Source: Acidobacteriota bacterium
GTDB lineage: Bacteria > Acidobacteriota > Thermoanaerobaculia > Thermoanaerobaculales > Sulfomarinibacteraceae
Assembly (NCBI GenBank): GCA_013152925.1
Contig: JAADFK010000230.1
Location: 1-40,861 of the forward strand
Direction: 5' to 3'
DNA: 40,861 nucleotides
In this document: piece after piece, positions 20,773 to 32,670 of the stretch
Numbering within the stretch: the first letter of the stretch is position 1
Layout of the letters: each line of letters starts with the position of its first letter
Position numbers and translations under genes: made by a program
The notes under the pieces: generated by a model
Seen by the model: only the letters and a program-made list of their open reading frames with translations
Told to the model about the DNA's origin: nothing
Databases searched by the model: none

Positions 20773-21495
20773 TCAACCCGGCGCGGTCCCTCCCAGGGAG
20801 ACCCTGCGCCATGGCGTCCTGCAGGGCGGACCGTCGGCGTGGAGGATCAGGCTCTCCCGGAAGGGCCCGGCCAGCAGCATCACCGTGGAAGAAACCGTCC
20901 CGCCGTGCTCCAGGTGGTGGCAGGCCGTGGGCGGCTCGTGGCGGGCCAGGAGCCCCTGGAGGTGCGCGGCGAGGTCTTCTGGCGTCCGGACTGCGTCCGG
21001 CGGCCGCCCCATCTCCATGAGCGCCGCGATCCGCCCGTCCCCGGCGAAGACCGGCGTATTGCCGACGCCGAGAGCGGGCTCCACAACCCGCTCCACCCGG
21101 GCCTCCGGAAGGTTCGTGGCGGCGACGGCCCCACGTGCCGAGGCCACCACCACGTTGACCGGCGCGTAACGGAGAAGGTCCTCCTCGAAGAGCGACCGGG
21201 AGGCCTCCTCGAAGTCGCCGCGCCGGGCCAGGTCGAGGGCCAGAAGCCCGCGGCTCCGCTGCCCCGGTCTCCGTTGCGCCCCGAGCCTCGCGTTGGTCAC
21301 CGCCACGACGAAGCCCGCTCCGTTGAGCGCCAGCCAGGTTCCCCCGGCCTCGGGGTCCATCCCACCGACGATGGGAGGATCGTGCCCGATCCAGCCGAAG
21401 CTCCCCGCGGGACGCGAGTGGAGCTCGTCACGGTTGGCGGCCACCGCCAGCTCCACGGCGGGCAGGGGCCGCCTGTAGATCAGCAGCGTGCACAT
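20773..21495 (-). CDS. NRDE family (TANGO2-like) protein
   Basis: This 240-residue protein begins with MCTLLIYRRPLPAVELAVAANRDE, the NRDE motif that names the family. Cys2 at the N-terminus fits an Ntn-hydrolase nucleophile. Further family segments are PEAGGTWLALNGAGFVVAVTN and HGGTVSSTVMLL. TANGO2 homologues in animals affect heme trafficking and Golgi organisation; the bacterial function is not established. The ATG at 21495 lies 6 nt after TAGGAT, without a ribosome-binding site. Confidence 0.9.
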   Translation of the reverse strand: MCTLLIYRRPLPAVELAVAANRDELHSRPAGSFGWIGHDPPIVGGMDPEAGGTWLALNGAGFVVAVTNARLGAQRRPGQRSRGLLALDLARRGDFEEASRSLFEEDLLRYAPVNVVVASARGAVAATNLPEARVERVVEPALGVGNTPVFAGDGRIAALMEMGRPPDAVRTPEDLAAHLQGLLARHEPPTACHHLEHGGTVSSTVMLLAGPFRESLILHADGPPCRTPWRRVSLGGTAPG

Positions 21496-21501
21496 GCCGG
21501 C

Positions 21502-21507
21502 ATCCTA
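21502..21507 (-). promoter_or_regulatory. -10-like TAGGAT, predicted leaderless start of NRDE gene
   Basis: TAGGAT is followed by GCCGGC and the ATG at 21495 on the minus strand. Confidence 0.4.
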
Positions 21508-21579
21508 CACCTCACGCCCCGAAGAATCCTTGCTTTCTCCCCAACGTCACGGGGTTTCCCTTCGTTCGGCTCCGGCGTC

Positions 21580-21618
21580 CGTTTCCCCGCGGCCCCTTCG
21601 GGTGGCCGCGGGGAAACG
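21580..21618. repeat. 15-bp perfect hairpin with TTCG-containing loop
   Basis: CGTTTCCCCGCGGCC (21580-21594) pairs perfectly with GGCCGCGGGGAAACG (21604-21618). The 9-base loop is CCTTCGGGT, where CC/GG can close a TTCG tetraloop. There is no T-run, so it is not a standard rho-independent terminator. Confidence 0.8.
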
Positions 21619-22120
21619 CCGTCCTCCTCCGGCGGGCGCGACGTTGTCGGAAGGACGAGGCGTCGAGAGCGCCCGCCGGAGTCCGGTGCGGGACGCCTCT
21701 CAGGAGGGCCAACACCTTCTACCGCCGGTGTTCCCGCGCATTGCCAAGCTCGGCGTTTTCCACCGGCGCGCTGGTCACCTGGAGGCTCTCCAAGAAAACG
21801 CCGAGCATGGCACGTGCCGCCCTTCGCGCCCTGCCGTGGCGCGATGGGTGGCCATCTCCTCGGGCGAAGGGATCGCTGGACGGGACGTGCCACCCACGGA
21901 CTTCTCCAGAGCGCGTCGGCGATCCCTTTACGCCAAGGAGAGAAGTGCGTGAGTGGCACTCCACGGGAAGGGTGGCCGGAGCATTCGTGTGCCATCGAAG
22001 GAGGCGTTCCGCGACGCATTCCGGCGGACGGCGTTCCCGGGCGGGCCTCCGCCCACCCGCCCGGGAGCGAACGCCGGCGCCAAGGAGAACCGCTCCCGCC
22101 GGCGCCTCGGTGTGGTCACG

Positions 22121-22126
22121 TACAAT
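22121..22126 (+). promoter_or_regulatory. -10-like TACAAT, predicted leaderless start of recD2
   Basis: TACAAT is followed by CGGCCC and the ATG at 22133. No Shine-Dalgarno sequence is present. Confidence 0.5.
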
Positions 22127-22132
22127 CGGCCC

Positions 22133-24355
22133 ATGAGTGGAACCGACGAGCCTCAGCTCCTGGAATCCCCGGAGGACGAGGGGGGCGAGACGGTCTCCCT
22201 GGAAGCCCGGGTGGTCCGTCCCCTGTTCACCAACGAGGAGAGCGGATGGGCCGCCGTTCGCATGAAGACCGCCGGCGGGGAACGGCTGACGGCTGTCGGA
22301 CCGTTGATCGGCGTTCGCGACGGCGACACGCTCCACATGACCGGCCGCTGGAAGCAGCACGAGCGTTTCGGACGCCAGCTCGAGGTCCAGTCCTGGATCC
22401 ACGTGTCACCCAGGACCCCCGAAGGTCTGGCGGCCTTCCTGGCCTCCGGCCGCCTGCCCGGGGTCGGCCCCGTGATGGCCAGGCGCCTGATCGAGGCCTT
22501 CGGCATGGAGGTCCTCGACGTTCTGGACAACCACCCCGAACGGCTGACCTCGGTTCCCGGTATCGGCGCCCGCACGGCCGCCAAGATCACGAAGGCATGG
22601 GAGGAGGCACGGGGCATCCAGCAGATCATGGTGTTCCTGCTGTCCCACGGCATCCCTCCGGGCGTCGCCATCAAGGCGCACAAGCGCTATGGCGCCTCGG
22701 CCCTGGCCGTCGTCCGGGAGAATCCGTACCGGCTGGCCGACGAGGTTTTCGGCGTCGGCTTCCGGACAGCGGACGGCGTGGCGCGATCCCTCGGGGTCCC
22801 TCTGGACGCGCCGGAGCGCCTCCAGGCCGGGCTCCTCTTCACTCTCCAGGAAGCCTCGGGCGAGGGCCACGTCTACCTTCCGGAGCCGGTGCTTTTCGAA
22901 CGCGCCGCCGCCATTCTCGAGACCGGCGCCGGCGACCTCCCACCGCACCTCGAGGAGCTGGAGACCTCCGGCAAGGTCGTCGCCGAGGGCACCAACGGGC
23001 AGCGCGCCGTCTACCTCCCCAGGCTGCACCGGGCGGAGGTCACCGTCGCCGGCCGCCTCTTCCAGATCTCCCGCGCCCCCGCACGCACCGTCACCGACCG
23101 GCCCAAGCGCGCCGTACAGTGGTACGAGCAGCGTTCCGGCCTCGAGCTGGACCCGACCCAGCGCCACGCCCTGACGGCGGCCCTGACCGAGAAGATCCTC
23201 GTGGTCACCGGCGGTCCCGGCACCGGCAAGACGACCCTGGTCCGCGGGCTGACCTCCATCCTCGCAGCCAAGGACCGCTCCGTAGAGCTGGCCGCCCCCA
23301 CGGGCCGTGCCGCCAAGCGCCTGGCCGAGGCCACCGGCCGCAAGGCGCGGACCATCCACCGCCTCCTCGAGTACACGCCGGCGAGTCACAGCTTCGCCCG
23401 CTCGGAGGACAACCCCATCTCCGCCGACTCCATCGTCATCGACGAGACTTCCATGCTCGACGTTGAGCTGGCGGCGGCCCTGCTTCGCGCCGCTCCCTCC
23501 AGGGGCCGCTTGCTGCTGGTCGGCGACGCCGATCAGCTCCCCTCCGTCGGGCCAGGCAGCGTCCTTGCCGATCTGATCGCCTCGGGCGCCCTGCCGGTGG
23601 TCCGCCTCGAGCACATCTTCCGCCAGGCGGCCCAGAGCCTGATCGTTCAGAACGCCCACCGGATCAACCGAGGCCACATGCCCCTCATCCCCAAGGACCC
23701 CGAGGGCGCCGACTTCTTCTTCATCGAGCGGGAGGATCCCGGCGCCCTGGTGACCACGGTCGGCGACCTGGTGCAGAACCGGATTCCCAAGGCCTTCGGC
23801 CTCGACCCGGTGGACGACATCCAGGTCATGGCGCCCATGCACCGGGGCGACGCGGGCGTCGCGGCTCTCAACGCCGCCCTCCGGCAGCTGCTCAACCCGC
23901 CGGACGCCGGACCCGAGCTCGTTCAGGGCTCCCGCAGCTTCCGCGGCGGCGACAAGGTGATGCAGATCCGCAATAACTACGACCTCGAAATCTTCAACGG
24001 CGACCTGGGGCGTATCGCCTCCGTCGATCCCGGCAAACGGAGCATCCTGGCCGTCTTCGACGGCCGCCTGGTGGAGATCCCTCCCGAGGGGATCGAGGAC
24101 CTCCAGCTGGCCTACTGCTCGACCATCCACAAGTCCCAGGGCTCCGAGTTCCCCGCCGTGGTCGTCGTTCTCCACCACTCCCACCACATCATGCTCGAGC
24201 GCAACCTCCTTTACACCGCCGTCACCCGCGGCCGGCGCCTCGTCGTCATCGTCGGCAGCCGCCGCGCCCTCCACCGCGCCGTCCGCACCACCACCCAAAG
24301 AAAGCGCCACACCGGCCTGGCCCCGAGGCTCCAGGATCTGTTCGGCCAAGGGTGA
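22133..24355 (+). CDS. recD2: RecD2-type ATP-dependent 5'-3' DNA helicase
   Basis: This 740-residue protein is a RecD2 superfamily-1B helicase that acts without RecB/RecC in DNA repair. The N-terminal OB part (residues about 20-90) and tandem helix-hairpin-helix motifs (LPGVGPVMARRL and VPGIGARTAAKI) identify the RecD2 subgroup. The helicase core contains the Walker A VTGGPGTGKTT, motif Ia APTGRAAKRL, motif II VIDETSMLD, motif III LLLVGDADQLPSVGPGSVL and a C-terminal TIHKSQGSEFP with YTAVTRGRR. The length is normal. The start codon follows TACAAT by 6 nt. It is convergent with the kinase gene at 24503. Confidence 0.95.
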   Translation: MSGTDEPQLLESPEDEGGETVSLEARVVRPLFTNEESGWAAVRMKTAGGERLTAVGPLIGVRDGDTLHMTGRWKQHERFGRQLEVQSWIHVSPRTPEGLAAFLASGRLPGVGPVMARRLIEAFGMEVLDVLDNHPERLTSVPGIGARTAAKITKAWEEARGIQQIMVFLLSHGIPPGVAIKAHKRYGASALAVVRENPYRLADEVFGVGFRTADGVARSLGVPLDAPERLQAGLLFTLQEASGEGHVYLPEPVLFERAAAILETGAGDLPPHLEELETSGKVVAEGTNGQRAVYLPRLHRAEVTVAGRLFQISRAPARTVTDRPKRAVQWYEQRSGLELDPTQRHALTAALTEKILVVTGGPGTGKTTLVRGLTSILAAKDRSVELAAPTGRAAKRLAEATGRKARTIHRLLEYTPASHSFARSEDNPISADSIVIDETSMLDVELAAALLRAAPSRGRLLLVGDADQLPSVGPGSVLADLIASGALPVVRLEHIFRQAAQSLIVQNAHRINRGHMPLIPKDPEGADFFFIEREDPGALVTTVGDLVQNRIPKAFGLDPVDDIQVMAPMHRGDAGVAALNAALRQLLNPPDAGPELVQGSRSFRGGDKVMQIRNNYDLEIFNGDLGRIASVDPGKRSILAVFDGRLVEIPPEGIEDLQLAYCSTIHKSQGSEFPAVVVVLHHSHHIMLERNLLYTAVTRGRRLVVIVGSRRALHRAVRTTTQRKRHTGLAPRLQDLFGQG

Positions 24356-32414: not shown

Positions 32415-32670
32415 GGGGATCCCTCCACTCGCTGCGCTCGGTCGGGATGACAGAGAGGGGCGGGGCGGCCGGAATCACGCTACTCCCTGTCATCCCGGCC
32501 GGGCAAGCGAAGCGAGTGAGCAGAGGGGGGCGGGGCGGCCGGAATCACGCCACTCCCTGTCATCCCGGCCGGGCAAGCGAAGCGAGTGAGCAGAGGGGGG
32601 CGGGGCGGCCGGAATCACGCAACTCCCTGTCATCCCGACCGAGCGAGCGAAGCGAGTGAGCGGAGGGATC
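32415..32670. repeat. Three 70-bp tandem repeats with an inverted partner
   Basis: The units start at 32461, 32531 and 32601 with CGGGGCGGCCGGAATCACGC and are nearly identical, the first two differing by very few bases. Each contains CTGTCATCCC and AAGCGAGTGAGC. The stretch 32418-32453 is the inverse of the third unit's 32627-32670, so the whole block can fold on itself. Related to the common dispersed GTCATCCCGACC...GAGGGATC type of bacterial repeat. Confidence 0.85.

Follow-up and report, generated by a model that had tools for sequence, protein, structure and literature searches.

The spacer between the divergent NRDE and recD2 genes is, with a probability of about 0.62, an inverted pair of non-coding, dispersed, non-autonomous repeat units of the mobile type (MITE- or BIME-like), which, within the genomes sampled, are restricted to a single Thermoanaerobaculia family. 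The repeat is most likely parasitic, mobile-type DNA, and its pair at NRDE/recD2 is most likely a neutral passenger. The boundaries of the unit (~270 bp) were obtained from alignments and an iterated profile. Table 1 collects the features in the window, i.e. the whole stretch of 40,861 nucleotides that was analysed. The two units are separated by 9 bp and together form one long imperfect inverted repeat of ~560 bp. Hairpin P3 is absent from unit 2 in the alignments, and it was apparently lost by a deletion between short repeats.

Table 1. The NRDE/recD2 spacer, its flanking genes and the parts of the inverted pair of repeat units
Feature	Position	Strand	Description
Spacer	21496-22132		between divergent NRDE and recD2
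NRDE gene (Pfam TANGO2)	20773-21495	minus	
recD2 gene	ATG at 22133	plus	
Unit 1, full-length repeat	21565-21845	minus (strand with G-U excess)	model positions 1-269; covariance-model match of 214.6 bits, E 3.7e-49; copy in training set
P1 of unit 1, closing stem of three-way junction	21574-21579 with 21692-21697	minus	covarying helix 2
P2 hairpin of unit 1	21580-21618, arms 21580-21594/21604-21618	minus	perfect 15-bp stem, CCTTCGGGT loop (TTCG); helix 4
P3 hairpin of unit 1	21627-21681, arms 21627-21639/21669-21681	minus	perfect 13-bp pair, 100%; helix 3
P5 hairpin of unit 1	21742-21812, arms 21742-21760/21794-21812	minus	19-nt pair, 95%; covarying helix 1
Unit 2, inverted (5'-to-5')	21855-22084	plus	covariance-model match of 155.6 bits, E 8.1e-35; outside training set
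10-bp inverted pair	21867-21876/21919-21928		
P5 hairpin of unit 2	21887-21959, arms 21887-21906/21940-21959	plus	20-nt pair, 90%
P1 of unit 2	22003-22008 with 22070-22075	plus	encloses P2
P2 of unit 2	22032-22045/22056-22069	plus	14-nt pair, 93%

The inverted repeats that the sequence-only reading had listed for the spacer are all present with slightly different lengths, and the perfect stem with a TTCG-containing loop (P2 of unit 1) was confirmed. That reading had asked beforehand for folding against shuffled controls, and the structure exceeded chance on both strands: the spacer gave z = -4.7 (minus) and -8.9 (plus), with none of the 20 dinucleotide shuffles for each strand folding as well. 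Unit 1 alone gave z = -5.6 as RNA and -7.6 as ssDNA. The value for unit 2 alone was weaker (z = -2.6; 5 of 200 shuffles folded equally well). The statement that no reading frame explains the spacer also stands. A coding sequence was rejected, as every one of the six frames is interrupted by a stop in 11 to 18 of 30 units, and the unit lengths vary freely modulo 3; two spurious ORFs had no Pfam match. The proposed switch between alternative folds is not supported. It had been based on sequence shared by two of the inverted pairs (21820-21876 and 21919-21928), and in the 5'-5' layout this shared sequence (CCCTTCGC at about 21821-21828 and GCGAAGGG at about 21864-21871, with a partner at 21919-21928) lies at the meeting point of the two units, whose 5' ends are homologous and face each other.

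The consensus fold of the ~270-nt unit consists of the long hairpin P5, a linker of near-constant length (39-42 nt) and a three-way junction formed by the closing stem P1 and the hairpins P2 and P3. It was derived from the alignment A3 (32 units from four genomes) and evaluated on the same alignment, in which 91.2% of the cells formed a standard pair compared with 75.0% after shuffling. Double changes were found at 33 of the 55 pairs (the covarying stems that had likewise been asked for beforehand), amounting to 291 cells versus 104 in the shuffled alignments. None of 500 shuffles reached any of these values, and pairing was only 37-47% when the partner was slid by 1-3 columns. The measure of further pair types was not above the shuffles in A3, with 205 of 500 as high. 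In the second alignment A4, comprising 61 model matches at other loci that lie mostly outside the model but were fitted to it and include some training copies, 89.7% of the cells were paired, double changes occurred at 45 of the 55 pairs, and each of the five measures was higher than in any shuffle. For the closing stem P1, 96-98% of the cells were paired and two to three pairs showed double changes. Whole stems differ between copies yet remain complementary. The copies within A3 and A4 are related to one another, which bears on all these statistics, but chance is implausible because of the effect size and the exchange of whole stems.

Used as a DNA query against the organism's own genome (G000), the spacer had 58 matches, which are spread over many places and together cover about 21542-22106 of the window. 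The covariance model found 48 matches there, with the repeat scattered about 40 times, and 51, 36, 62, 16, 97 and 136 matches in six other genomes of the family. Units were thus present in seven of the eight family genomes of the first sample (own genome included), or six of the seven relatives. Another genome of the same family from the class sample (G013) carried two units, and none was detected by the covariance model in G004, G008 and G009 of this family. No unit was found in four genomes of a sister family, in 20 genomes of other families in the class sample, or in the remaining 23 genomes sampled across the phylum, one of which belongs to the class sample too. Altogether, the covariance-model search outside the family was negative in all 44 distinct genomes. 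As scoring covered the best 78-150 candidates per genome, a strongly diverged relative may have escaped detection.

Exact-pattern matches in public genomes came from Thermoanaerobaculia/Acidobacteriota MAGs and from one MAG labelled Planctomycetota, apparently of the same assembly series as one of the former. The Planctomycetota-labelled MAG and a Thermoanaerobaculia-family MAG that carry units (L046, L047, L050; JAADGH01, JAADFN01) apparently stem from one metagenome, and the units of the latter are of the G000 type and lie near contig ends, as after transfer or misbinning. A viral origin was rejected with no match of the exact pattern in viral contigs, and a plasmid or phage origin with no blastn match in plasmids or phages. 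No known Rfam family reached its gathering score in the window, where the best sub-threshold hit scored 22.7 bits against 52 (E 0.88). Literature searches on Acidobacteriota or Thermoanaerobaculia yielded nothing directly relevant to such repeats.

In a tree of 85 units the copies formed clades by genome, with 47 copies in G007 (support 0.999), 13 in G005 (0.987) and 7 in G006 (0.978). The G000 copies fell together in one group, within which the only G013 copy is placed. Therefore, the units multiplied within each lineage or were homogenised there; gene conversion among old copies could produce such clustering. The sequence-only reading had suggested either mobile palindromic repeats or a new non-coding RNA. 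The dispersed repeat is well supported by the copy number in this genome and its relatives and by the grouping of copies by genome, and the structured molecule is supported by the strong covariation and the strand asymmetry described below, while an RNA of a single locus is not.

The 5'-5' inverted dimer of the window recurs at four further loci of the own genome (C114, C4, C118 and C76), with 9-10 bp between the model ends. Units also stand alone, in truncated form or in direct arrays, one of which in G007 has a period of 286 bp. Truncations affect both unit ends, and many copies are degraded or lack a hairpin. Outside G000, 54 of 59 units did not overlap a predicted gene according to home-made gene calls. 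By-eye comparison of the flanks, in which the outer ends are fuzzy, revealed no evident target-site duplication. At three loci, the genes lying between or next to adjacent units were housekeeping, of the toxin-antitoxin type or unknown, with no transposase among them. The toxin-antitoxin type genes adjoining units in the own genome (L036:6357-6980, L029:1933-2154 and L040:2375-3127) are HigB with HTH, HicB-like and AbiEii/nucleotidyltransferase-like. In addition, a C-rich motif, CCCCC-R-CCCACCCGG, is arrayed in the 5' flanks of G007 and G005 units (L079, L082, L083, L090, L097-L104). It alternates with stretches of 25-40 nt in which purine-rich 7-8-mers are repeated in tandem, their sequence changing with the locus (GTGACGGA, GGGAAAC, GTGATTAG and GTGAAGAC, among others); in G005, tracts of 6-mers are present on the opposite side as well. 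The C-rich motif occurs 48 times in 167 kb of G007 loci and is absent from the window. A tandem array of a 70-bp unit (3.1 copies, 95% matches) lies at 32451-32667 of the window.

At NRDE/recD2 itself, the end of unit 1 lies ~70 nt ahead of the NRDE start and that of unit 2 ~48 nt ahead of the recD2 start, both in sense, as would be expected if each unit were a riboswitch-like cis-regulatory leader reading toward its gene. We regard such a leader as highly improbable: recD2 has neither a unit nor an NRDE neighbour within the fetched flank in ten family relatives, and outside G000 the gene downstream of a unit is antisense twice as often as sense. Since recD2 of these relatives lacks a unit, the NRDE/recD2 location is not special for the repeat. 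The gene order around recD2 is not conserved among relatives, so an empty site could not be shown there. Gene context elsewhere bears on another explanation, namely that the units are gene-end elements acting as transcription terminators or as mRNA 3'-end stabilisers, as some REPs have been proposed to do. Units outside G000 do favour gene 3' ends, with 21 between convergent and 7 between divergent genes, but insertions that avoid promoters would account equally well for this bias. Between tandem genes they show no orientation preference (10 same, 8 opposite), the G000 units occur in mixed contexts, and the pair in the window sits between divergent gene starts, where the intrinsic terminator signal was not above chance (1 found, 0.6 expected). 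A role at gene ends is hence rather improbable.

The chief rival to mobile DNA is that the unit is transcribed into a structured RNA that has an activity of its own, either a multicopy non-coding RNA or a spreader by reverse transcription, in which selection would keep the RNA and not the hairpin DNA. We consider it unlikely, even though the multibranched fold, the long-range closing stem and the near-constant linker would suit an RNA. On the strand named for the units, G-U cells outnumber A-C cells in both alignments (74 vs 34 in A3 and 164 vs 53 in A4), with a reversal in G005 alone (2 to 14). The consensus energy as RNA is also slightly better on that strand (-161.9 vs -154.2 kcal/mol). The excess of G-U over A-C therefore suggests one particular strand as the one that folds, whether RNA or ssDNA; the alignments fit either, and single-stranded DNA transposition predicts a named strand as well. 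Moreover, the many copies per genome, often degraded or without a hairpin, argue against an RNA, as do truncations at both ends instead of the 5' end only. In the spacer of the window no promoter-like match was found, although this is a weak test. It is distinctly improbable that the unit is a self-spreading structured RNA whose transcript is recognised by an enzyme and copied back into the chromosome. If this were true, the unit would be a SINE-like bacterial element with a fold kept by selection for retrotransposition.

A non-autonomous mobile element with the fold as its recognition signal is preferred because of the dispersal, the lineage grouping, the dimers, the degraded copies and the kept fold. 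For such an element, the fold would be recognised by an enzyme acting in trans, possibly a transposase that uses hairpin ssDNA or a factor that works on the transcript, and this enzyme may copy units into neutral spacers. The fold would persist as unfolded copies could not spread, and the stem sequence would be free to change in pairs. Y1 transposases were present at 22 loci in eight of the nine genomes searched, with no unit in the fetched flanks (up to ~1.5 kb). One genome, G004, has a Y1 transposase and no units. A link to Y1 transposases was thus rejected. One such gene in G007 (L126, G007:C229:7800-8129) has its own ends (AATCACTAAATATGGAAGCCTGGCACC and its inverse), unrelated to the unit.

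Among known systems, REPs are single hairpins of 20-40 bp with stems of 5-13 bp, and REP/BIME palindromes carry GTAG and CGTC tags (PMC3733652). The unit shares with them intergenic dispersal, inverted dimers including heterodimers, fixed spacers in some dimers, subfamilies with alternative complementary stem residues, and G-T pairs in stems (PMC3733652). The inverted dimers with fixed spacing that characterise REP/RAYT systems are found here as well (five 5'-5' dimers at 9-10 bp in G000). In contrast to REPs, the unit has ~270 nt, a long-range closing stem in addition to three hairpins, and four covarying helices; unlike in REP/RAYT systems, no Y1 transposase gene has a unit within the fetched flanks, and the window units have no GTAG/GYAG tag at their ends. 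Only in G007 does GTAG precede the unit by 4 bases in 14 of 42 cases and GYAG in 22 of 42 (background 0.24% and 0.98%), which recalls the tag of RAYT-linked REPs. The unit resembles MITEs in being short, non-coding, multicopy and largely intergenic with terminal inverted repeats. It differs from them in its single units and direct tandem arrays and in an internal multi-stem fold kept by covariation, and no target-site duplication (flanks by eye) or parent transposon (genes at three loci) was found. The bcr1-type repeats of the Bacillus cereus group are intergenic repeats of the mobile type described as keeping secondary structure. By this description they are like the unit in being intergenic and structured, in a different host phylum; the comparison by sequence or model extends to the Rfam scan. 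The best reading is that the repeat represents a new family of structured interspersed repeats, MITE/BIME-like and not a member of the REP/RAYT family.

Bacterial interspersed palindromic repeats, REPs among them, are mostly short single hairpins, and here a multi-branched fold of ~270 nt is involved. Dozens of paralogous copies from several genera have kept this fold while exchanging whole stems, and they document selection on structure with unusual clarity for a dispersed repeat. Meanwhile, the covariance model can serve as a ready probe for finding the enzyme that moves the unit. For structured intergenic sequence in these genomes, copy number should be checked before a locus-specific RNA gene is called.
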